From contig NC_003283.11 of the NCBI RefSeq assembly GCF_000002985.6, positions 7,874,001 through 7,938,000 on the forward strand: a stretch of DNA of 64,000 nt, given 5' to 3'. Below, piece by piece: positions 35,561-52,920 of this stretch; positions within the stretch are counted from its first letter, which is position 1, and each line of letters begins with the position of its first letter. Made by a program: the position numbers and the translations under genes. The DNA comes from Caenorhabditis elegans (taxonomy: Eukaryota > Nematoda > Chromadorea > Rhabditida > Rhabditidae). The notes below the pieces were generated by a model, which was not told the DNA's origin, searched no databases, and saw nothing but the letters and a program-made list of their open reading frames with translations.

Positions 35561-38554
35561 CTTTTCTCATTATCAACGTGAGTTTCAGCGAAGAAATGGA
35601 AGAAATCATTTTCGTAAATTTCGAGAAGTTTGAACAAAGAGAACAACGAAATAACAAAAAAACTGGGACAGAAAAAGCGTTGAATTAGATGGATTCTGTT
35701 GAATTGGTAATTGGATAAAAAAATAGAGCAACAGAACATCAAACAAAAAACTTTATGATCTCTCAAAGAACATATGTCTCTTTTTTATTTTCTTTTGTTC
35801 AGAATTTTATAATTTGTACAAATTTTGATGCGAATTATTTCAGAAGTGCAATTTACGCAAATTAGTGTTGAAACTGATTTTAGTTGAACTTGAGTTTATG
35901 CTCAGATTCGGGCTCAGTAGCAGACCGAGGCTTAATTTTTGAAATCTGAAAATTATGACCTTGATTGGCCGAAAAATTTTGTTAAGGAAATCTCTTAATT
36001 AAAGCTCTTAAATAAAAACAAATCTTCTCATTCTTAAAATATCAGTCATGCCAAGATCTACATATAAATTAGAAAACAACATCTCATTAACTTTCAGACA
36101 ACCTCTGAATAATACTGACGAAACTTTGTTATGAAAATCAAGCCAAGCTTGAATAGTGCCAATTTACCAAGTCAGAAGTATGACTACATACGTCTGACAT
36201 TTATATACAAAAATTTTGAAAGTTTGAACTTGTTATTAATTGGAAGCAAACCATTAACAAAGATCAACAATTTAACTTAGAATCGGCCAACTTTCAGCTT
36301 TTTGATTCAAAAAAAATTGAAATTTTTGAGTTTCAAGTGCCTTCTGTGAAAAACTAACTATTTCAGCTTTCCAATAACATGAATTCTAATATGAATGTTT
36401 TTGATAAATTTTTTTATGTCTAATTTTTCAGTAACTATTGTAAATATTCACTTCTCAATGGAAGAATTAATAATTTAAATTTTTTAAATGCCTTACAAAA
36501 TATACAAAATGATTTTTTTCAAATGAATGCACATAGGATGCGCACAAAGATCTTTTCCAAATAAAAGCCAGCTCTCAAAAAATCCAAGATGCTTTTGAGT
36601 TTGTTTAAATAAAAAAATCTCTTCAATTTCTTTTAAGAAAACACTCAAAAATTTGATGTCTACACCCTAAGATCATCGAGTGGTTCGGTGACGTGGAAAA
36701 AAGTGGAATAGGAGTTCGTAGATTGGGTTGGAATACAACTAATACCAACAAGCTGTGGGGGTGTTTATTATGTTTATTAGTATATAAAGTTTGAGCCACT
36801 GGACTGGTCAAGTAAGAGTGGTCCTTGACGATGTCCTGTAGATAAGGAGGGCTTCAAATGAATATGTGATTTATGAACATCGACAGAGCAATCGAAACAA
36901 CAGAAAAACCGAAATAGAACTGTTGCAGATTTATTGCAATTTCATCGAAATCCCATTACAAATTGTTAAAGATCTTGACGACTCTAACTGTAATGCAACT
37001 TCAAAAATTAGAATTTTGAGGGGGAGATTGCTTGGAACCACTTTGAATATTTTTAGTATTCAATTTTAGTAAACTTTCAGCATGTTTTATGTGTTCACTT
37101 CCGGAATACTTACCATTAAATGTACTAATAAATGTACAATAATTTCGAAAGAAAGTATATCGGCTCCACGATGAATCAAAATTTTTGCAAGAATGACACA
37201 AGAATGGGTAACAAGTCAGAAAAATTAGTTTTGCAAAAAGGTTGAATATTATAATTTTCTGAAACTGATTGTAACGGTGCAGTTAGTGATAGACTTCCCA
37301 TTAGAAGTTTCCCAGGAAGGCAGACTTGCTCAAAACTTTACCTAGTCCGCTACAAATGAATATTTTGACTCAAAAACATCAAAACTCCAACAAAACGTTC
37401 AAAAATGCTCACATTTTCCAGATCACTAACCTTCTAATTACCGGAGCTGTTCCCCCTCATAGCCCACGTCATTTCCGGGTTCTCAACTATATTATAGATG
37501 ACCTATATAGTGGCTCAATGTTGAGCTGAACTGATACGTCCTAAAACTCACTTCAAAATTAAAAATTTGGAGAGTTAAGGTAAAATAAGAAGGAAAGTCT
37601 GTCAAGTTTTTGAGGTTATTCTATACATTTAAAATGAATACGAATTGGGGTGGGTAAAAGTTCAGAAAAACATACAATTTTCAAAGATTTTTGCAAAAAA
37701 ACTTATGAAAATAGGATTCGAATAAGAAAAAGTAAAGAAAAGCAAATAGCCGTCAGGCACGACTAGGGGGGGAATCTCGATTTTGAAAATTAGCTTCATA
37801 TACTTTTTCTTCGAGAGATTTTCACATAATTGGAAAATTTGACTGGAAGTTAGAAGACAAGGAAGATGTTATGAATGCCGCGTCATTTCCAGAAAAACAT
37901 ATAGAGAAAATGTTTTTCTTAATAATGGCGTTTGGAATTTTCTGAAAATTTCCGGTTTAGCATGTCTGATGGTGTGAAATAAATCTATTGGTGTGCCTTG
38001 TTTAACCAAATTTCTATGAAAAAAATGTAAATTTAAACAAGAAACATTTATGGAGTTTGTATGCAGACCATAAAAGTTTTTAAAAGCAGCACACATCGGG
38101 ATATTCCAAAATCGCTGTACCTCTAGGCCTGAAAATTTCAACAAAGACATCAACTCCCAACTTTCATTTGCAACACAAATTCGTGGGGACCACAAAAACA
38201 CGCAAAACGTCAATGTGCGGAGAAATGTGGAAATGTGCTGTTGAGCGTGAAAATGAGCAAATTCATTCGGGCTTCTGGTGAAGGGCGTTTGCTCTCCTCG
38301 AGTGGTCCCCTGGTTTTTTGTGTGTCATTCGATCCTTGATTTAGTGTCAGTTCGTCTGGAGAACATTTCTGGTATTTTTCTTTAAAAACATTTGTTTTAA
38401 ATAAAAATCTTTCAAAGCTTAATTTTGTCCAATTTAGACGGAACTATTTTTCTTTTTAGGGTAAAAAATACATAGACAGAACTATACGAAAACATTATCC
38501 AAAAGGAATGAAAATCAGCATAATAAAATAAAACATAATGAAACCAGCCGCTGA

Positions 38555-38571
38555 CCGCGCCTACGGCGCGG
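38555..38571. repeat. Perfect GC hairpin
   Basis: CCGCGCC, loop TAC, GGCGCGG: a seven-pair, all-GC stem in DNA that is otherwise about 65-70% AT. It resembles the end of a small foldback repeat rather than a gene part. Confidence 0.6.
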
Positions 38572-38770
38572 GCAACGACTGGCACCATTAAAAGTATTTG
38601 ACACACATACCTTCAATCACTCAAAAAATTTCTCATCATGAAAAAAACTTGAAACGCGGTTTAATGGCACTGTTAAATGTATGTATTTTTCTACGACATG
38701 CATGTTTCAAAAATTCACAGACAGTATGAAAACTTTCTGTTACTTTTTGACCAAGACAGTAACCTTACAA

Positions 38771-38950
38771 TACCACTACAGTACCTTGACATTATCCTCC
38801 ACCGACTCCTAACCCAATACCTCTTCAAAGGACGAAATGCCAATTTTTCCAAAACTACAGTACCCCTATAGTACCACTACAGTACCTTGACTTGATCCCC
38901 CATCAACTCCCAAATAACTACCTCTTCTAAAGCTCTAAGCTCAATTTTTC
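38771..38950. repeat. Diverged 80 bp direct repeat with ACTACAGTACC words
   Basis: Two related units (38771-38850 and about 38872-38950) both start TACCACTACAGTACCTTGAC and end CAATTTTTC, separated by a short AAAACTACAGTACCCCTATAG segment. It sits at the outer edge of the left minisatellite arm. No counterpart exists at the outer edge of the right arm, suggesting that the right arm is truncated. Confidence 0.7.
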
Positions 38951-39662
38951 GGAACATTCCAAAAATTTCCCAATTTTTCTAGAAAGTTCTGGAACATTCC
39001 AGAATTTCCTCGATTTTTCTAGAAAGTTCTGGAACATTCCAGAATTTTCTCGATTTTTCTAAAAAGTTCTGGAACATTCCAGAAATTTCCCGATTTTTCT
39101 AGAAAGTTCTGGAACATTCCAGAAATTTCTCGATTTTTTTAAAAAGTTCTGGAACATTCCAGACTTTTCCCAATTTTTCTAGAATGTTCTGGAACATTCC
39201 AGACATTTCCTAATTTTTCTAGAAAGTTCTGGAACATTCCAGACTTTTCCCAATTTTTCTAGAAAGTTCTGGAACATTCCAGACTTTTCCCAATTTTTCT
39301 GGAAAGTTCTGGAACATTCCAGACTTTTCCCAATTTTTCTAGAAAGTTCTGGAACATTCCAGAATTTTCTCGATTTTTCTAGAAAGTTCTGGAACATTCC
39401 AAAAATTTCCCAATTTTTCTAGAAATATCTGGAACATTTCAGAATTTTCCCAATTTTTCTAGAAAGTTCTGGAACATTCCAGAATTTTCCCAATTTTTCT
39501 AGAAAGTTCTGGAACATTCCAGAATTTTCTCGATTTTTTTAGAAAGTTCTGGAACATTCCAGAATTTTCTCGATTTTTCTAGAATGTTCTGGAACATTCC
39601 AGACTTTTCCTAATTTTTCTAGAAAGTTCTGGAACATTCCAGACTTTTCCCAATTTTTCTAG
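38951..39662 (-). repeat. Left 40 bp heat-shock-element minisatellite, about 18 copies
   Basis: Tandem 40 bp units, reverse complement of those at 42.9-51.0 kb. The core read here is TTCTAGAAAGTTCTGGAAC plus ATTCC, i.e. alternating TTC and GAA pentamers as in heat-shock factor sites. Variation between units is mainly in the spacer TTTTCCCAATTTT / TTTTCTCGATTTT. Confidence 0.95.
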
Positions 39663-39712
39663 TTTTTTCGAAATTTCCAGAAGATTCTAGATTTCCAGAA
39701 TTTTAGAATTTT

Positions 39713-40020
39713 CAGAAAATTTAAATTTCCCGCAAAAATATTTTTCACAGAAAATTTAAATTTCCCGCAAAAATATTTTTCACAGAAAATTTAAATTTCC
39801 CGCCAAAATATTTTTCACAGAAAATTTAAATTTCCCGCCAAAATATTTTTCACAGAAAATTTAAATTTCCCGCCAAAATATTTTTCTCAGAAAATTTAAA
39901 TTTCCCGCCAAAATATTTTTCACAGAAAATTTTAATTTCCCGCCAAAATATTTTTCACAGAAAATTTAAATTTCCCGCCAAAATATTTTTCACAGAAAAT
40001 TTAAATTTCCCGCCAAAATT
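39713..40020. repeat. Left 35 bp minisatellite with E2F-type sites, about 9 copies
   Basis: Unit is AAAATTTAAATTTCCCGCC followed by AAAATATTTTTCACAG. Most units hold TTTCCCGCCAAAA, a perfect match to the E2F consensus TTTSSCGC with the extended nematode form. The first two units read CCCGCAAAAA and lose the second C. Confidence 0.92.
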
Positions 40021-40245
40021 TTGGGTCTTACCACGACGGGTCTCACCACGGTGGGTCTTACCACGATGGGTCTCACCACGACGGGTCTCACCACGATGGG
40101 TCTCGCCACGATGGGTCTCACCACGGTGGGTCTCACCACGATGGGTCTCGCCACGACGGGTCTCACCACGATGGGTCTTACCACGATGGGTATCGCCACG
40201 ATGGGTCTCACCACGATGGGTCTCGCCACGATGGGTCTCACCGCG
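40021..40245. repeat. Left 15 bp minisatellite, about 15 copies
   Basis: Tandem units of GGTCTCACCACGATG with variants TCTTACC, TCTCGCC and ACGACGG. Because 15 is a multiple of three, the array is open in all frames and translates as GETHR-type repeats on one strand, but there is no start context or splice signal and it is not a gene. Confidence 0.95.
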
Positions 40246-40367
40246 AAGGATGACAGACCCCGCCCACAATTCTCAGTGACTTTGGGTGTGACGTCACAGA
40301 CTACAAAGACTACATAGACTACAAACTATGGAACAAACGGAATTATTTTTTTATATATAAGTAATGA

Positions 40368-41797
40368 ATATATAAGTAATGATGGTAATCTAAACGGAGA
40401 TCAATTTTTCTCCAGCTTGTTAACTTTTTTTTTCAGAAATTCTATGGTTTCTTTCATATCCAACAACATTGATGCTCTTCTTTTTTTTGTTAAAAATTTT
40501 ATTTTTGATCTGAAAATGACAATATAATTTTAAAACTAATACAAATTTCAAACCTCTTGATTCAAAAATAAGTATATGCATGCGTCGGCACAACAATGCA
40601 AAGCATAGCAAATTGGACAAATGATATTACTTTCGATGTTATCAAATAAGATTGGAACAATCTTAAATGACGCAAAGCTCAATAATGAAAACATTGAAAC
40701 CGAAAAAAACTGAATTAATATCGAAACTTCGCGTGCACGGATTTTGCGAGCATGTTCGGAATTAACGGATATCTTAATGATGATGCTTGAAATTTTGATC
40801 TTCATAAATATCTGAAAAATACTCAATTGGGTCATCGTCAATTAAGCTGGCAATTGCGGACGAATGATGATAGTTAAATATAGAAGGGTAGGACAGTGTT
40901 ACGCAGCACCTGTCTTTGTCCGGGTTCAGCGATTCGTTAATTAATGGAAAGAATGACCATATTTTTCTGTGTATATTGGCAGGCCAGAAAAACAGTTAGC
41001 CAGACATTCTTATAGCCTATAGCCACTACTTGAAAGAAGCGTCGTGCAGAAAGTTTACAAAAATGTTGCGTTCCTCAAATCCGAAATTTGAAACTCTTAC
41101 GGCAAAATAACATCCAATTGTTAAAACAAAACAAGTACTATGAACAACTGTGCTAATTAAAAATCCCCAGTTATACTCCTTTAAAGGTGTTATAGACCAA
41201 AAACCATATTTTGTATGATCCAAGATTACCCTTAATTATTATCATTGAGAATATGACTGATTTTTTTGTGAGAAACGTACGTGCAACATAAAAAGAATTG
41301 ATCAGAAATTAGTTTCAATGCGGATAAAAAAAAACAAAACAAAAAATAAGCCTACGATAACCAATCGGTTCAGAGCCATCACAATCATAATAAAAACAGT
41401 GTTATTCCACGAGAAGTGAGATATGTTTGACATTAACCAAGGTCCAAAAGCGTATGGTGAGTCACCAAAAATATGGTTCTGAAAATAATTCTACAGATAC
41501 GTATAACATTGAAACCCCCTTACACTGAAAATAAGTGCCGGAGAAGTAGCAGATATTCACGATTAAGTTGATAATATCATTGAGCATTGTGATAACTGAT
41601 ATCAAATTGACGCAGTTTTCATCCCGCTTCTTTTGAATTCTTCTTAATGGGACGAGCACAGTCAAATTAATCAAAACTCCAATAAAGTTGAGCAGGAGAA
41701 AAAGGCAACCAACTATAATCTTGAACATGAAGCTTTGACTAAATCTGAATAAAATAACTTGTTATTGTTCACAGTCAATCAATCATTCTACTCAATA
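40368..41797. other. Unique spacer of the giant inverted repeat
   Basis: About 1.43 kb of non-repeated DNA lies between the inner arm ends (AAGTAATGA at 40359-40367 and TCATTACTT at 41798-41806). It contains only the SRX-like pseudogene. The left edge carries an extra 13-16 bp copy of ATATAAGTAATGA. Confidence 0.8.
40420..41744 (-). pseudogene. SRX-like chemoreceptor, frame-disrupted, between inverted repeat arms
   Basis: Recognisable minus-strand exons are 41524-41744 (ATG 41728, TM1 LLLNFIGVLINLTVL and TM2), 41356-41478 (TM3, FIMIVMALNRLVI), about 41101-41230 (ECL2/TM5, WGFLISTVVHSTCFVLTIGCYF), 40554-40811 (TM6-TM7) and 40420-40509 (basic tail KNKIFNKKKK, TAA). The pattern resembles nematode SRX/SRT chemosensory receptors. 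Joining exon 1 at its only good donor (GTAAGG, 41523) to exon 2 creates TAA at the junction, and exon 3 has only a weak AAG acceptor in the wrong phase. These two conflicts suggest a pseudogene. An upstream N-terminal exon may have been lost at the repeat border (41797). Confidence 0.65.
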
Positions 41798-41930
41798 TCA
41801 TTACTTATATATAAAAAAATAATTCCGTTTGTTCCATAGTTTGTAGTCTATGTAGTCTTTGTAGACTGTGACGTCACACCCAAAGTCACTGAGAATTGTG
41901 GGCGGGGTCTGTCATCCTTCGCGGTGAGAC

Positions 41931-42129
41931 CCATCGTGGCGAGACCCATCGTGGTGAGACCCATCGTGGCGAGACCCATCGTGGAGATACCCATCGTGGT
42001 GAGACCCATCGTGGTGAGACCCGTCGTGGCGAGACCCATCGTGGTGAGACCCGTCGTAGCGAGACCCATCGTGGTGAGACCCATCGTGGTGAGACCCATC
42101 GTGGCGAGACCCATCGTGGTAAGACCCAA
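41931..42129. repeat. Right 15 bp minisatellite, about 13 copies
   Basis: Units of CATCGTGGTGAGACC, the reverse complement of the left array, with matching variant forms (GGCGAGACC, GGAGATACC, CGTAGCGAG). Copy number differs from the left arm. Confidence 0.95.
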
Positions 42130-42130
42130 A

Positions 42131-42860
42131 ATTTTGGCGGGAAATTTAAATTTTCTGTGAAAAATATTTTGGCGGGAAATTTAAATTTTCTGTGAAAATT
42201 ATTTTGGCGGGAAATTTAAATTTTCTGTGAAAAATATTTTGGCGGGAAATTTAAATTTTCTGTGAAAAATATTTTGGCGGGAAATTTAAATTTTCTGAGA
42301 AAAATATTTTGGAGGGAAATTTAAATTTTCTGTGAAAAATATTTTGGCGGGAAATTAAAAATTTTTTGTGAAAAATATTTTGGAGGGAAATTTAAATTTT
42401 CTGTGAAAAATATTTTGGCGGGAAATTTAAATTTTCTGTGAAAAATATTTTGGCGGGAAATTTAAATTTTCTGTGAAAATTATTTTGGCGGGAAATTTAA
42501 ATTTTCTGTGAAAAATATTTTGGCGGGAAATTTAAATTTTCTGTGAAAATTATTTTGGCGGGAAATTTAAATTTTCTGTGAAAAATATTTTGGCGGGAAA
42601 TTTAAATTTTCTGTGAAAAATATTTTGGCGGGAAATTTAAATTTTCTGAGAAAAATATTTTGGAGGGAAATTTAAATTTTCTGTGAAAAATATTTTGGCG
42701 GGAAATTAAAATTTTTTTGTGAAAAATATTTTGGAGGGAAATTTAAATTTTCTGTGAAAAATATTTTGGCGGGAAATTTAAATTTTTTTGTGAAAAATAT
42801 TTTGGAGGGAAATTTAAATTTTCTGTGAAAAATATTTTGGCGGGAAATTTAAATTTTCTG
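42131..42860. repeat. Right 35 bp minisatellite with E2F-type sites, about 21 copies
   Basis: Units of TTTTGGCGGGAAATTTAAAT and TTTCTGTGAAAAATA. Most keep TTTTGGCGGGAAA, the E2F-type site on this strand. Several units read GGAGGGAAA and lose it. A block of several units is duplicated in order (for example the GAGGG-bearing units recur at 42312, 42662 and later), which indicates multi-unit expansion. Confidence 0.93.
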
Positions 42861-42945
42861 AAAATTCTAAAATTCTGGAAATCTAGAATCTTCTGGAAAT
42901 TTCGAAAAAACTAGAAAAATTGGGAAAAACTAGAAAAATTGGGAA

Positions 42946-45900
42946 AAGTCTGGAATGTTCCAGAACTTTCTAGAAAAATTGGGAAAAGTCTGGAATGTTC
43001 CAGAACTTTCTAGAAAAATTGGGAAAAGTCTGGAATGTTCCAGAACTTTCTAGAAAAATTAGGAAAAGTCTGGAATGTTCCAAAACATTCTAGAAAAATT
43101 GGGAAAAGTCTGGAATGTTCCAAAACTTTCTAGAAAAATTGGGAAAATTCTGAAATGTTCCAGAAATTTCTAGAAAAATCGAGAAAATTCTGGAATGTTC
43201 CAAAACATTCTAGAAAAATTGGGAAAAGTCTGGAATGTTCCAAAACTTTCTAGAAAAATTGGGAAAATTCTGAAATGTTCCAGAAATTTCTAGAAAAATC
43301 GAGAAAATTCTGGAATGTTCCAGAACTTTCTAGAAAAATTGGCAAAATTCTGGAATGTTCCAGAACTTTCTAGAAAAATTGGGAAAATTCTGGAATGTTC
43401 CAGAACTTTCTAGAAAAATCGGGAAATTTCTGTAATGTTCCAGAACTTTCTAGAAAAATTGGGAAAAGTCTGGAATGTTCCAGAACTTTCTAGAAAAATT
43501 GGGAAAAGTCTGGAATGTTCCAGAACTTTCTAGAAAAATTAGGAAATGTCTGGAATGTTCCAGAACATTCTAGAAAAATTGGGAAAAGTCTGGAATGTTC
43601 CAAAACTTTCTAGAAAAATTGGGAAAATTCTGAAATGTTCCAGAAATTTCTAGAAAAATCGAGAAAATTCTGGAATGTTCCAGAACTTTCTAAAAAAATC
43701 GAGAAAATTCTGGAATGTTCCAGAACTTTCTAGAAAAATTGGGAAAAGTCTGGAATGTTCCAGAACTTTCTAGAAAAATTGGGAAAAGTCTGGAATGTTC
43801 CAAAACTTTCTAGAAAAATTGGGAAAAGTCTGGAATGTTCCAGAACTTTCTAGAAAAATTGGGAAAAGTCTGGAATGTTCCAAAACTTTCTAGAAAAATT
43901 GGTAAAATTGTGAAATGTTCCAGAAATTTCTAGAAAAATTGGGAAATTTTTGGAATGTTCCAGAACTTTCTAGAAAAATCGAGAAAATTCTGGAATGTTC
44001 CAGAACTTTCTAGAAAAATTGGGAAAAGTCTGGAATGTTCCAGAACTTTCTAGAAAAATTAAGAAAAGTCTGGAATGTTCCAGAACTTTCTAGAAAAATT
44101 GGGAAAAGTCTGGAATGTTCCAGAACTTTCTAGAAAAATTGGGAAAAGTCTGGAATGTTCCAGAACTTTCTAGAAAAATTGGGAAAAGTCTGGAATGTTC
44201 CAGAACTTTCTAGAAAAATCGAGAAAATTCTGGAATGTTCCAGAACTTTCTAGAAAAATTGGGAAAAGTCTGGAATGTTCCAGAACTTTCTAGAAAAATT
44301 GGGAAAAGTCTGGAATGTTCCAGAACTTTCTAGAAAAATTAGGAAAAGTCTGGAATGTTCCAGAACATTCTAGAAAAATTGGGAAAAGTCTGGAATGTTC
44401 CAAAACTTTCTAGAAAAATTGGGAAAATTCTGAAATGTTCCAGAAATTTCTAGAAAAATTGGGAAAATTCTGAAATGTTCCAGAACTTTCTAAAAAAATC
44501 GAGAAATTTTTGGAATGTTCCAGAACTTTCTAGAAAAATTGGGAAAAGTCTGGAATGTTCCAGAACTTTCTAGAAAAATTGGGAAATTTTTGGAATGTTC
44601 CAAAACTTTCTAGAAAAATTGGGAAAAGTCTGGAATGTTCCAGAACTTTCTAGAAAAATTGGGAAAAGTCTGGAATGTTCCAGAACTTTCTAGAAAAATT
44701 GGGAAAAGTCTGGAATGTTCCAGAACTTTCTAGAAAAATTGGGAAAAGTCTGGAATGTTCCAGAACTTTCTAGAAAAATTAGGAAAAGTCTGGAATGTTC
44801 CAGAACATTCTAGAAAAATTGGGAAAAGTCTGGAATGTTCCAGAACTTTCTAGAAAAATTAGGAAATGTCTGGAATGTTCCAGAACTTTCTAGAAAAATT
44901 GGGAAAAGTCTGGAATGTTCCAGAACTTTCTAGAAAAATTAGGAAAAGTCTGGAATGTTCCAGAACATTCTAGAAAAATCGGGAAATTTCTGGAATGTTC
45001 CAGAACTTTCTAGAAAAATTGGGAAAAGTCTGGAATGTTCCAAAACTTTCTAGAAAAATTGGGAAAAGTCTGGAATGTTCCAAAACTTTCTAGAAAAATT
45101 GGGAAAATTCTGAAATGTTCCAGAAATTTCTAGAAAAATCGAGAAAATTCTGGAATGTTCCAGAACTTTCTAAAAAAATCGAGAAAATTCTGGAATGTTC
45201 CAGAACTTTCTAGAAAAATTGGGAAAAGTCTGGAATGTTCCAGAACTTTCTAGAAAAATTGGGAAAAGTCTGGAATGTTCCAGAACTTTCTAGAAAAATT
45301 AGGAAAAGTCTGGAATGTTCCAGAACATTCTAGAAAAATTGGGAAAAGTCTGGAATGTTCCAGAACTTTCTAGAAAAATTGGGAAATTTTTGGAATGTTC
45401 CAAAACTTTCTAGAAAAATTGGGAAAAGTCTGGAATGTTCCAGAACTTTCTAGAAAAATTGGGAAATTTTTGGAATGTTCCAAAACTTTCTAGAAAAATT
45501 GGGAAAAGTCTGGAATGTTCCAGAACTTTCTAGAAAAATTGGGAAAAGTCTGGAATGTTCCAAAAACTTTCTAGAAAAATTGGGAAAAGTCTGGAATGTT
45601 CCAGAACTTTCTAGAAAAATTGGGAAAAGTCTGGAATGTTCCAGAACTTTCTAGAAAAATTAGGAAAAGTCTGGAATGTTCCAGAACATTCTAGAAAAAT
45701 TAGGAAAAGTCTGGAATGTTCCAGAACTTTCTAGAAAAATTAGGAAATGTCTGGAATGTTCCAGAACTTTCTAGAAAAATTGGGAAAAGTCTGGAATGTT
45801 CCAGAACTTTCTAGAAAAATTAGGAAAAGTCTGGAATGTTCCAGAACATTCTAGAAAAATTGGGAAAAGTCTGGAATGTTCCAGAACTTTCTAGAAAAAT

Positions 45901-48900
45901 TGGGAAAAGTCTGGAATGTTCCAAAACTTTCTAGAAAAATTGGGAAATGTCTGGAATGTTCCAGAACATTCTAGAAAAATTGGGAAAAGTCTGGAATGTT
46001 CCAAAACTTTCTAGAAAAATTGGGAAAATTCTGAAATGTTCCAGAACTTTCTAGAAAAATTGGGAAAAGTCTGGAATGTTCCAGAACTTTCTAGAAAAAT
46101 TGGGAAAAGTCTGGAATGTTCCAGAACTTTCTAGAAAAATTAGGAAAAGTCTGGAATGTTCCAGAACATTCTAGAAAAATTGGGAAAAGTCTGGAATGTT
46201 CCAGAACTTTCTAGAAAAATTAGGAAATGTCTGGAATGTTCCAGAACTTTCTAGAAAAATTAGGAAAAGTCTGGAATGTTCCAGAACATTCTAGAAAAGT
46301 TGGGAAAAGTCTGGAATGTTCCAGAACTTTCTAGAAAAATTGGGAAAAGTCTGGAATGTTCCAAAACTTTCTAGAAAAATTGGGAAAAGTCTGGAATGTT
46401 CCAAAACTTTCTAGAAAAATTGGGAAAATTCTGAAATGTTCCAGAACTTTCTAGAAAAATTGGGAAATTTTTGGAATGTTCCAATACTTTCTAGAAAAAT
46501 TGGGAAAAGTCTGGAATGTTCCAGAACTTTCTAGAAAAATTGGGAAATTTTTGGAATGTTCCAAAACTTTCTAGAAAAATTGGGAAAAGTCTGGAATGTT
46601 CCAGAACTTTCTAGAAAAATTGGGAAAAGTCTGGAATGTTCCAAAACTTTCTAGAAAAATTGGGAAAAGTCTGGAATGTTCCAGAACTTTCTAGAAAAAT
46701 TGGGAAAAGTCTGGAATGTTCCAGAACTTTCTAGAAAAATTAGGAAAAGTCTGGAATGTTCCAGAACATTCTAGAAAAATTGGGAAAAGTCTGGAATGTT
46801 CCAGAACTTTCTAGAAAAATTAGGAAATGTCTGGAATGTTCCAGAACTTTCTAGAAAAATTGGGAAAAGTCTGGAATGTTCCAGAACTTTCTAGAAAAAT
46901 TAGGAAAAGTCTGGAATGTTCCAGAACATTCTAGAAAAATTGGGAAAAGTCTGGAATGTTCCAGAACTTTCTAGAAAAATTGGGAAAAGTCTGGAATGTT
47001 CCAAAACTTTTTAGAAAAATTGGGAAAAGTCTGGAATGTTCCAGAACTTTCTAGAAAAATCGAGAAAATTCTGGAATGTTCCAGAACTTTCTAGAAAAAT
47101 TGGGAAAAGTCTGGAATGTTCCAGAACTTTCTAGAAAAATTGGGAAAAGTCTGGAATGTTCCAGAACTTTCTAGAAAAATTGGGAAATTTTTGGAATGTT
47201 CCAGAACTTTTTAGAAAAATCGAGAAAATTCTGGAATGTTCCAGAACTTTCTAGAAAAATTGGGAAAAGTCTGGAATGTTCCAGAACTTTCTAGAAAAAT
47301 TGGGAAATTTTTGGAATGTTCCAAAACTTTCTAGAAAAATTGGGAAAAGTCTGGAATGTTCCAGAACTTTCTAGAAAAATTGGGAAAAGTCTGGAATGTT
47401 CCAAAACTTTCTAGAAAAATTAGGAAAAGTCTGGAATGTTCCAGAACATTCTAGAAAAATTGGGAAAAGTCTGGAATGTTCCAGAACTTTCTAGAAAAAT
47501 TAGGAAAAGTCTGGAATGTTTCAGAACATTCTAGAAAAATTGGGAAAAGTCTGGAATGTTCCAAAACTTTCTAGAAAAATTAGGAAAAGTCTGGAATGTT
47601 TCAGAACATTCTAGAAAAATTGGGAAAAGTCTGGAATGTTCCAAAACTTTCTAGAAAAATTGGGAAAAGTCTGGAATGTTCCAAAACTTTCTAGAAAAAT
47701 TGGGAAAATTCTGAAATGTTCCAGAAATTTCTAGAAAAATCGAGAAAATTCTGGAATGTTCCAGAACTTTCTAAAAAAATCGAGAAAATTCTGGAATGTT
47801 CCAGAACTTTCTAGAAAAATTGGGAAAAGTCTGGAATGTTCCAGAACTTTCTAGAAAAATTGGGAAAAGCCTGGAATGTTCCAGAACTTTCTAGAAAAAT
47901 TAGGAAAAGTCTGGAATGTTCCAGAACTTTCTAGAAAAATTAGGAAAAGTCTGGAATGTTCCAGAACATTCTAGAAAAATTGGGAAAAGTCTGGAATGTT
48001 CCAGAACTTTCTAGAAAAATTAGGAAATGTCTGGAATGTTCCAGAACTTTCTAGAAAAATTAGGAAAAGTCTGGAATGTTCCAGAACATTCTAGAAAAAT
48101 TGGGAAAAGTCTGGAATGTTCCAGAACTTTCTAGAAAAATTGGGAAAAGTCTGGAATGTTCCAGAACTTTCTAGAAAAATTGGGAAAAGTCTGGAATGTT
48201 CCAGAACTTTCTAGAAAAATTGGGAAAAGTCTGGAATGTTCCAGAACTTTCTAGAAAAATTGGGAAAAGTCTGGAATGTTCCAGAACTTTCTAGAAAAAT
48301 TGGGAAAAGCCTGGAATGTTCCAGAACTTTCTAGAAAAATTAGGAAAAGTCTGGAATGTTCCAGAACATTCTAGAAAAATTGGGAAAAGTCTGGAATGTT
48401 CCAGAACTTTCTAGAAAAATTAGGAAATGTCTGGAATGTTCCAGAACTTTCTAGAAAAATTAGGAAAAGTCTGGAATGTTCCAGAACATTCTAGAAAAAT
48501 TGGGAAAAGTCTGGAATGTTCCAGAACTTTCTAGAAAAATTGGGAAATGTTTGGAATGTTCCAAAACTTTCTAGAAAAATTGGAAAAAGTCTGGAATGTT
48601 CCAGAACTTTCTAGAAAAATTGGGAAAAGTCTGGAATGTTCCAAAACTTTCTAGAAAAATTGGGAAAATTCTGAAATGTTCCAGAAATTTCTAGAAAAAT
48701 TGGGAAATTTTTGGAATGTTCCAGAACTTTCTAGAAAAATCGAGAAAATTCTGGAATGTTCCAGAACTTTCTAGAAAAATTGGGAAAAGTCTGGAATGTT
48801 CCAGAACTTTCTAGAAAAATTGGGAAAAGTCTGGAATGTTCCAGAACTTTCTAGAAAAATTGGGAAAAGTCTGGAATGTTCCAGAACTTTCTAGAAAAAT

Positions 48901-51019
48901 TAGGAAAAGTCTGGAATGTTCCAGAACATTCTAGAAAAATTGGGAAAAGTCTGGAATGTTCCAAAACTTTCTAGAAAAATTGGGAAAATTCTGAAATGTT
49001 CCAGAACTTTCTAGAAAAATTGGGAAGAGTCTGGAATGTTCCAGAACTTTCTAGAAAAATTGGGAAAAGTCTGGAATGTTCCAGAACTTTCTAGAAAAAT
49101 TAGGAAAAGTCTGGAATGTTCCAGAACATTCTAGAAAAATTGGGAAAAGTCTGGAATGTTCCAGAACTTTCTAGAAAAATTAGGAAATGTCTGGAATGTT
49201 CCAGAACTTTCTAGAAAAATTAGGAAAAGTCTGGAATGTTCCAGAACATTCTAGAAAAGTTGGGAAAAGTCTGGAATGTTCCAGAACTTTCTAGAAAAAT
49301 TGGGAAAAGTCTGGAATGTTCCAAAACTTTCTAGAAAAATTGGGAAAAGTCTGGAATGTTCCAAAACTTTCTAGAAAAATTGGGAAAAGTCTGGAATGTT
49401 CCAAAACTTTCTAGAAAAATTGGGAAAATTCTGAAATGTTCCAAAACTTTCTAGAAAAATTGGGAAAATTCTGAAATGTTCCAGAAATTTCTAGAAAAAT
49501 CGAGAAAATTCTGGAATGTTCCAGAACTTTCTAAAAAAATCGAGAAAATTCTGGAATGTTCCAGAACTTTCTAGAAAAATTGGGAAAAGTCTGGAATGTT
49601 CCAGAACTTTCTAGAAAAATTGGGAAATTTTTGGAATGTTCCAAAACTTTCTAGAAAAATTGGGAAAAGTCTGGAATGTTCCAGAACTTTCTAGAAAAAT
49701 TGGGAAAAGTCTGGAATGTTCCAGAACTTTCTAGAAAAATTAGGAAATGTCTGGAATGTTCCAGAACATTCTAGAAAAATTGGGAAAAGTCTGGAATGTT
49801 CCAAAACTTTCTAGAAAAATTGGGAAAATTCTGAAATGTTCCAGAAATTTCTAGAAAAATCGAGAAAATTTTGGAATGTTCCAGAACTTTCTAAAAAAAT
49901 CGAGATAATTCTGGAATGTTCCAGAACTTTCTAGAAAAATTGGGAAAAGTCTGGAATGTTCCAGAACTTTCTAGAAAAATTGGGAAATTTTTGGAATGTT
50001 CCAGAACTTTTTAGAAAAATCGAGAAAATTCTGGAATGTTCCAGAACTTTCTAGAAAAATTGGGAAAAGTCTGGAATGTTCCAGAACTTTCTAGAAAAAT
50101 TGGGAAATTTTTGGAATGTTCCAAAACTTTCTAGAAAAATTGGGAAAAGTCTGGAATGTTCCAGAACTTTCTAGAAAAATTGGGAAAAGTCTGGAATGTT
50201 CCAAAACTTTCTAGAAAAATTGGGAAAAGTCTGGAATGTTCCAGAAATTTCTAGAAAAATTGGGAAAAGTCTGGAATGTTCCAGAACTTTCTAGAAAAAT
50301 CGAGAAAATTCTGGAATGTTCCAGAACTTTCTAGAAAAATTGGGAAATTTTTGGAATGTTCCAAAACTTTCTAGAAAAATTGGGAAAATTCTGAAATGTT
50401 CCAGAAATTTCTAAAAAAATCGAGAAAATTCTGGAATGTTCCAGAACTTTCTAGAAAAATTGGGAAAAGTCTGGAATGTTCCAGAACTTTCTAGAAAAAT
50501 TGGGAAAAGTTTGGAATGTTCCAAAACTTTCTAGAAAAATTGGGAAATTTTTGGAATGTTCCAGAACTTTCTAGAAAAATTGGGAAAATTCTGGAATGTT
50601 CCAGAAATTTCTAGAAAAATTGGGAAATTTTTGGAATGTTCCAGAACTTTCTAGAAAAATCGAGAAAAGTCTGGAATGTTCCAGAACTTTCTAGAAAAAT
50701 TGGGAAATTTTTGGAATGTTCCAAAACTTTCTAGAAAAATTGGGAAAAGTCTGGAATGTTCCAGAACTTTCTAGAAAAATTGGGAAAAGTCTGGAATGTT
50801 CCAAAACTTTCTAGAAAAATTGGGAAAAGTCTGGAATGTTCCAGAACTTTCTAGAAAAATTGGGAAAAGTCTGGAATGTTCCAGAACTTTCTAGAAAAAT
50901 TAGGAAAAGTCTGGAATGTTCCAGAACATTCTAGAAAAATTGGGAAAAGTCTGGAATGTTCCAGAACTTTCTAGAAAAATTAGGAAAAGTCTGGAATGTT
51001 CCAGAACATTCTAGAAAAA
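42946..51019 (+). repeat. Giant 40 bp heat-shock-element satellite, about 200 copies
   Basis: The unit is GGGAAAAGTC TGGAATGTTC CAGAACTTTC TAGAAAAATT. It contains five contiguous alternating pentamers gGAAt-gTTCc-aGAAc-tTTCt-aGAAa, the ideal heat-shock factor trimer target in extended form. Common variants change CAGAAC to CAAAAC (loses one pentamer), TTTCTAG to ATTCTAG (keeps TTC), or the spacer to ATCGAGAAAATTC. Over 8 kb only one indel is apparent (an extra A near 45563). Higher-order blocks of several variant units recur. The array ends abruptly inside an SRSX coding exon. Confidence 0.97.
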
Positions 51020-51351
51020 TCATTGAAAACTGTAAAACGTCTTCGGCTTTCTGTATTAATTTTTATCTTCACATGGTTTTTTAGCCAAATTATTTCACTA
51101 CTAATTCTTAAACAATATACTTTTTTGGATTGGGAAACTATTATTTATGTTCACAATGTAAGTGGCTGAGTTAAAATACTTCAATTTGGTAAAATTTACA
51201 GTCGGTTTTCATTTCTCTATCATACAGCAACACGTTTTATGTGACACTGTGGAACAGTAAAGAGTATCGTGAGCAGTTTTATAGCATCTGGTGCCCAAAG
51301 AGAACTAACAAAAACGTATTAACAGCTTTTTATATTAATAATCTGACTTGA
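51017..51351 (+). pseudogene. SRSX chemoreceptor, C-terminal remnant cut by the satellite
   Basis: Exon 51017-51157 encodes the TM6 region (VKRLRLSVLIFIFTWFFSQI), homologous to MKRLKVSIMFFIFTWYIG of the neighbour at 54960. Exon 51202-51351 encodes TM7 and tail (YSNTFYVTLWNSKEYREQF), ending TGA. The intron and donor GTAAGTG match the neighbours' gene structure exactly. The first Lys codon overlaps the last satellite unit; TM1-TM5 are absent upstream for 8 kb and I found them nowhere else in the window. The gene was cut by insertion or expansion of the repeat, or by a deletion at its edge. Confidence 0.88.
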
Positions 51352-51782: not shown

Positions 51783-52920
51783 ATGCTCCACGATTGGATT
51801 GAAAGAACTGATCAACTTTTTGTCGCCAGTTTCAAAATCTTATTTTTCGTCTTTGGAACATTTGGAAACTGTTGCTTTATTGCTTTAATATTCAAAAACC
51901 AAAGATTGAGATCAAAATCTTGTAAGTTCTTAGAAAAAATCATTTTTAAATGATAACTTCTTTAAAGCATACCTGCAATGTTTTCAATGCCTTTTCCAAA
52001 TTATTTGCCTTCTGGGGACCATGGTTGATGTTGGATTAGCTTTCCCAGATATTCAGTTGGATAGAACATCCTGTTTTCACGTTATGATTCCATTTATTTT
52101 CTTTGAAGCGGCCCAAGCAGTCATCATTTTAGAGCTAGTTGCTGATGTTTATATAATCGTGAAACTACCAGTTCTCTATAAAAAATGTGATACGTGGATG
52201 TATCTATCAGGTGCTCTAGTGGTTCCTTCAATTGTTGGAGCAATATTTGTGAGCTGGGGATTCACGAATTTGGACTACGAAGAAATCTATTTTTGTAGTC
52301 CAACTTCGTGTAAGTTTAAAACTCGTAAATTTCGCCCTTTTTTAAGCATTTGAGGTTTAGCCCTGCACACCGTGGCAAGTAAAAACTACACACGATGCAT
52401 TGTTCTAACAAACACATTAACCGTTATCATATTTGCCACGTTGATAACAATATTTTATAAGAAAAGCAAGAATAATAATAAAGAATCTACAAAAGTAATG
52501 AAACGTCTTCAATTCTCAGTTGCAGTGTTTCTAGGATCTTGGTATATTACCATTTTCACATATTACGTATGCATCGCCGTTGGTGTGACAGGAGAAGATT
52601 TACACTTTGTAATCAATAATATGGTATGTGACTTTGAAAAAAAAACATCAATTTTATAATTTAATTACGTTTTAGTCATTTTTCACATGTCTTGCATATA
52701 CACAAACGTTTTATATAATAATCTACACATCAAAAGAATATAGAATAGTAAGTTAAAATTCAAATATTTTTTTTGAAACTAAAGAAAAGAAACAACGCAT
52801 AACATCTTAACGTTTAAGGCATTTAAAGAATTGATCGGTGAAAAGCAAAAACAAATGGATATGCTGAACACTCATTCATCACGAGTATCTGCACTTCATG
52901 GACCTACAAGGATCGCCTAA
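51783..52920 (+). CDS. SRSX-family chemoreceptor GPCR, 305 aa
   Basis: Five exons: 51783-51921, 51968-52309, 52361-52623, 52676-52747 and 52819-52920. TM1 has FFVFGTFGNCCFIALI, followed by LRSKS. Exon 2 opens with YLQCFQCLFQIICLLG (TM2), typical of SRSX. TM3 is EAAQAVIILELVADVYIIV, and TM4-ECL2 runs VSWGFTNLDYEEIYFCSP. TM5 is NTLTVIIFATLITIFY, then KVMKRLQFSVAVFLGSWY opens TM6. TM7 is SFFTCLAYTQTFYIIIYTSKEYRI. The tail is hydrophilic. The protein probably sits in sensory neuron cilia; its ligand is unknown. It begins 764 bases after the end of the heat-shock-element array, which could affect its transcription. Confidence 0.9.

Follow-up and report, generated by a model that had tools for sequence, protein, structure and literature searches.

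Introduction

Human satellite III, the repeat of nuclear stress bodies, is a long tandem HSF-binding repeat, far longer than the 8.1 kb array described here; a satellite that nucleates such bodies co-localizes with HSF1 foci and is transcribed upon heat shock. In Caenorhabditis elegans, tandem repeats of two kinds have been published for the transposon family HelitronY4_CE, a 15-mer, CCATCGTGG(T/C)GAGAC, and a 40-mer (PMC4039745). The available text of Garrigues et al. (2019; PMC6927752) reports HSF-1 ChIP-seq signal on HelitronY4_CE that increases with heat shock, and eight copies of the element with more than 100 heat-shock elements (HSEs) each. By the same account 61.4% of HSEs lie within Helitrons, and Hac-HSE genes are enriched for GPCR and smell GO terms and carry more repressive marks. 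A 40-nt satellite family, Fam_5_40_94, has a member listed within HelitronY4_CE in Table 1 of PMC9918286. At the level of the nucleus, a review describes worm HSF-1 granules that re-form in similar locations and whose composition is largely unknown (PMC9737000).

The window analyzed here is a stretch of 64,000 nucleotides (C5:7874001-7938000), and the genome searched comprised 100,286,401 bases in 7 contigs. Judged by its sequence, the 8.1 kb array in this window is the expanded internal 40-bp repeat of a HelitronY4_CE-type Helitron. It shares with the published element the 15- and 40-bp units, the Helitron ends, more than 100 HSEs per copy and receptor-gene surroundings, and it is very likely among the eight copies with more than 100 HSEs (PMC6927752); the copy that carries it differs in its 202 units, its missing 3' end and its head-to-head arrangement with a second copy. 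With Fam_5_40_94 it shares the 40-nt period and Helitron membership, and the member III:8344363 overlaps matches to a 35-mer of the unit among the matches listed, although that member is given as 281 nt and the window array spans 8.1 kb (PMC9918286). The likeness to satellite III is that of a long tandem HSF-binding repeat, whereas the worm array is single, lies inside a transposon and is known here from sequence alone. Binding of HSF-1 to the family, copies with more than 100 HSEs, GPCR enrichment and the decoy idea are already published, and since the HelitronY4 family is known, the array on its own does not bring in a new mechanism.

Organization of the locus

A decayed 7TM-like gene of 1.4 kb separates two Helitrons that face each other head to head (Table 1). 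Read from 38544 to 51020, the left copy comes first with its 3' end, 40-bp, 35-bp and 15-bp repeats and 5' end; the core follows, and then the 5' end, 15-bp and 35-bp repeats and 40-bp array of the right copy. An earlier note had placed the array at 42946..51019 and likened it to the HSE-bearing Helitrons described in Caenorhabditis. The observation of the array holds; the array is itself a Helitron array, and the coordinates of the note left out both the 18 inverted units at 38951-39662 and the intervening Helitron parts. A free-standing satellite is ruled out, as the array sits within a Helitron frame. The mirrored layout had also raised the idea of a foldback or TIR transposon, which is ruled out because most other copies are one-sided and the 5' flanks of the two window copies differ. 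With an intact 5' end and a flank unlike that of the left copy, the right copy is taken as a separate insertion.

Table 1. Features of the facing Helitron pair and its right flank (window positions).
Feature	Position	Strand	Evidence
Left Helitron, HelitronY4_CE type, complete	38544..40382	-	5' TC at 40382, 3' CTGG at 38544; shared termini, TRF
Left 3' terminal region, hairpin CCGCGCC-GTA-GGCGCGG and CTGG	38544..38950	-	shared termini
Left 40-bp HSE array, 17.8 units	38951..39662	-	TRF; 94 pentamers in runs of at least 3
Left 35-bp tandem repeat, 8.8 units	39713..40019	-	TRF
Left 15-bp tandem repeat TGGGTCTCACCACGA, 15 units	40022..40246	-	TRF; matches the HelitronY4_CE 15-mer in the available published text
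Inter-Helitron core, decayed 7TM-like frames	40383..41797	-	judged by eye
Right Helitron, 3'-truncated	41798..51020	+	5' TC at 41798; 3' terminal region missing
Right 15-bp tandem repeat, 14 units	41919..42128	+	TRF
Right 35-bp tandem repeat, 20.8 units	42131..42860	+	TRF
Right 40-bp HSE array, 8.1 kb, 202 units	42930..51020	+	TRF, unit cutting, pentamer count
5'-truncated srsx chemoreceptor fragment, abuts array	51021..51350	+	PF10320 profile 184-257, two frames
Next srsx gene past array	51783..52656	+	PF10320 in three frames, two above Pfam cut-off

The core gave no significant Pfam match, and none of 562 protein candidates reached E <= 0.001. No structured RNA was found in the window at Rfam gathering scores, and no such RNA or tRNA by ARAGORN with the bacterial code. 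The 3' terminal region of the left copy has at least 22 near-full-length matches in the genome, its own locus included; within the window its full-length match is at 38544-38950 only. The terminal 15 bp at the 5' end of the left copy are tandemly duplicated (40353-40382), and another locus, L007, has a similar partial duplication. Between the 35- and 40-bp repeats, 68 bp are identical in both facing copies (39645-39712 and 42861-42929) and are closer than the remaining arms, which may reflect recent copying or gene conversion.

The right edge of the array coincides with a gene break. An srsx fragment that lacks its 5' part begins exactly at the array end (51020/51021). For a paralogue at C5:4971.8-4973.7 kb, whose own frame runs further upstream, the alignment to the window is confined to 51020-51334, apart from two short, weaker matches inside 51015-51163. 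Because the array stops where the alignment of the paralogue starts, the Helitron 3' end and the srsx 5' part were probably lost in a single deletion, the alternative being a misjoin. The first ATG of the downstream srsx gene lies 763 bp past the array end.

Helitron ends and family assignment

Helitrons are recognized by a 5' TC end that follows a target A and by a 3' CTRR end that follows a short hairpin and precedes a T. Both window copies have the 5' TC after A, and the left copy has the 3' hairpin and CTGG/T, which the right copy has lost with its 3' end. The 3' CTGG/T was present in 15 of 15 rows examined (the left window copy and 14 others). These rows represent 13 elements at 12 sites: two of them show an element a second time, and the loci L028 and L034 have flanks in common. 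Among these rows the hairpin preceding CTGG was altered in L020 only. At the 5' end, A/TCATTAC was found in 17 of 20 rows, namely both window copies and 15 of the 18 others; the exceptions are truncated (L018), diverged (L021) or have C before TC (L023). The termini and the 3' hairpin are thus common to other insertions with different flanks.

The internal order is shared as well. Outside the window, 20 of the 22 loci having all four parts show the order 40-bp, 35-bp, 15-bp and 5' end, three of these 20 being second views of the same element; L009 and L035 are the misfits. In L024 the 40-bp array has its best match in normal orientation. The TRF consensus of the 15- and 40-bp units matches by eye the repeats in the available text on HelitronY4_CE (PMC4039745). 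Autonomous Helitrons encode a RepHel transposase; the longest ORF within either window Helitron is 104 aa, and both are therefore taken as non-autonomous. Elsewhere in the genome, L006 carries at 1471-1501 a second Helitron-like 3' end (CTGG) a few bases before its own 5' TC end, as if one Helitron had inserted beside the other. At L028 and L034, L013 and L008 (C5:6.09 and 6.07 Mb), two copies have flanks in common on either side, which points to a probable duplication of the segment around them.

Structure and size of the array

TRF describes a 40-bp tandem array of 202.2 copies with 93% match (score 13989), and cutting gave 202 units with a spacing of 40 throughout and a single exception of 41, which confirms the 8 kb repeat of about 200 units first claimed for this DNA. 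The units fall into 39 distinct types in irregular order along the array; 70 are identical to the consensus, and the longest exact internal repeat is 361 bp at the lags tested. The consensus contains GGAAT GTTCC AGAAC TTTCT AGAAA, that is, five contiguous pentamers, and two of its eight pentamer slots are degenerate (AATTG and AGTCT). It divides into four decamers (TAGAAAAATT, GGGAAAAGTC, TGGAATGTTC and CAGAACTTTC), so that the 40-bp unit can be read as an HSE dyad repeated every 10 bp, in which two of the TTC slots have decayed. The autocorrelation of the array is 0.52-0.57 at lags 10, 20 and 30, compared with 0.16-0.44 at the off-register lags tested.

The outstanding feature of the array is its size. 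The longest other contiguous array examined measures about 1.6 kb (C3:424778-426379, L031 plus L035), and C4:8464000-8474000 holds broken clusters only, of up to 725 bp. At 8.1 kb the array is thus about five times the length of any other examined, a comparison that covers L001-L042, many of them overlapping, and is no exhaustive ranking of the genome. A 35-mer of the unit has 547 genome matches with up to 3 mismatches, 194 of them in the window, and its reversed control has 0. For the three-pentamer motif GAANNTTCNNGAA, 493 of 16898 genomic matches (2.9%) lie in the array and 555 (3.3%) in the window, while the reversed control gives 1023 matches genome-wide.

Heat-shock-element content

Of the 1196 GAA and TTC pentamers in the array, 815 belong to contiguous alternating runs of at least 3; first-order Markov sequences, 200 of which were generated, contain 2.74 such pentamers on average. 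By length, 117 runs comprise exactly 5 pentamers, 22 comprise 6-7 and 22 comprise 3-4, and there are 97 pairs and 187 singles besides. The description of five contiguous pentamers in every unit is thus true of the consensus and not of every actual unit, and the figure of about 1000 pentamers is reached only when isolated ones are counted. To call the units the best possible HSF-1 target goes too far: besides the degenerate slots, the window has 21 of the 2038 genomic matches to a pattern of seven pentamers (a count that includes overlapping matches), which limits the word "ideal". The HSEs of the array are good, yet longer runs exist elsewhere in the genome.

Across the family, the GAA/TTC letters vary less within units than the spacers do in 27 of 28 other loci (each with at least 3 units; the loci share ancestry), L016, with 3 units, showing the opposite direction. 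A pooled permutation of core against spacer gave p = 0.007 for 19 picked loci whose rows share ancestry; in the 8.1 kb array alone this constraint did not reach significance (p = 0.17).

Discussion

The reading we consider probable is that the array is an expanded internal minisatellite of HelitronY4_CE onto which HSF-1 loads, as family-level data suggest. The minisatellite of a non-autonomous element has grown to about 11 times the length of the array in the facing copy, presumably via unequal exchange or slippage, and the product is a tandem block of HSEs in 10-bp register, whose anatomy, family and size are shown by the sequence. Upon heat shock, HSF-1 and Pol II would load onto the array, as the published data on the family lead one to expect, and loading is predicted to be modest because such copies tend toward repressive chromatin. 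The same family-level data suggest that the array may make the receptor genes on its flank heat-inducible. Repeat instability most likely produced the expansion as a side effect, without selection for it as a device. That the array is an HSF-1 target sequence, as the earlier note proposed, is supported at the level of the family by the available HelitronY4_CE ChIP-seq account (PMC6927752); since reads from 40-bp units map to many places, the published occupancy is difficult to attribute to this array in particular.

Other readings concern the identity of the sites and the reality of the array. The unit also contains TGGAATGT, which we take to be a TEAD/EGL-44-like motif, and its 185 matches in the 202 units, exclusively on the plus strand of 42930-51020, would fit a unit that mainly serves another factor. 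This is most improbable, since contiguous alternating pentamers in a 10-bp register suit HSF and not TEAD, and the available text of a G3 2022 paper is without EGL-44 or TEAD, which is weak evidence. An assembly artefact is very unlikely as the source of the length of the array. The exact internal repeats of up to 361 bp, the abrupt joining of the right edge to a truncated gene and the 68 bp at the left edge that are identical in the facing copy could all be expected of one, but the 39 unit types in irregular order argue against it, as do the sequence past the right edge, whose next best genome match is at 78%, and the presence of the same array type at many other loci.

Roles in the nucleus beyond the expanded HelitronY4_CE minisatellite have also to be weighed. 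Granules that re-form in similar locations imply a scaffold (PMC9737000), the available text of PMC6453478 calls the binding sites of HSF-1 granules unknown, and an array with 815 pentamers in runs, whose length is about five times that of any other examined, could be the preferred candidate scaffold on which nuclear stress bodies of HSF-1 form in the worm, a functional analogue of satellite III. The dsRNA foci induced by heat coincide in part with HSF-1 granules (PMC6453478), and the locus is an inverted Helitron pair. Such a role is unlikely given that the array holds just 2.9% of genomic three-pentamer matches, that many other HSE clusters could serve, and that, in a published example, HSF-1 occupies a Helitron promoter less than it does hsp-70 (PMC6927752); in addition, the available text of PMC6453478 is without mention of Helitrons and ties the dsRNA to translation-related and downstream-of-gene transcripts. 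We consider it quite unlikely that this single array is the very scaffold of the HSF-1 bodies, with read-through of the facing pair as the source of the partly overlapping dsRNA, a satellite-III-like system that would have evolved independently from a transposon. A proposal of Helitron arrays as worm stress-body scaffolds was not found in the available text of PMC6927752, PMC6453478, PMC9918286, PMC4039745, PMC9737000, PMC9261439, PMC6765114, PMC12062965 and PMC8896005, a set with most subscription papers outside its coverage. The array could also act as a decoy that sequesters HSF-1 and weakens the response to heat shock, in line with the speculation on decoy roles of transposon-borne sites in PMC8896005 and with the preferential binding of HSF-1 to Helitrons in heat-stressed germ cells stated in a review (PMC9737000). 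With 493 of 16898 three-pentamer matches in the array, titration by the array alone, as the earlier note envisaged, is highly improbable, and the share of HSEs held by Helitrons as a class would make any decoy effect a property of the family.

As an expanded HelitronY4_CE minisatellite, the array offers a single, well-delimited target of about 8 kb that could be deleted in a lab strain to ask what seeds HSF-1 granules in the worm.
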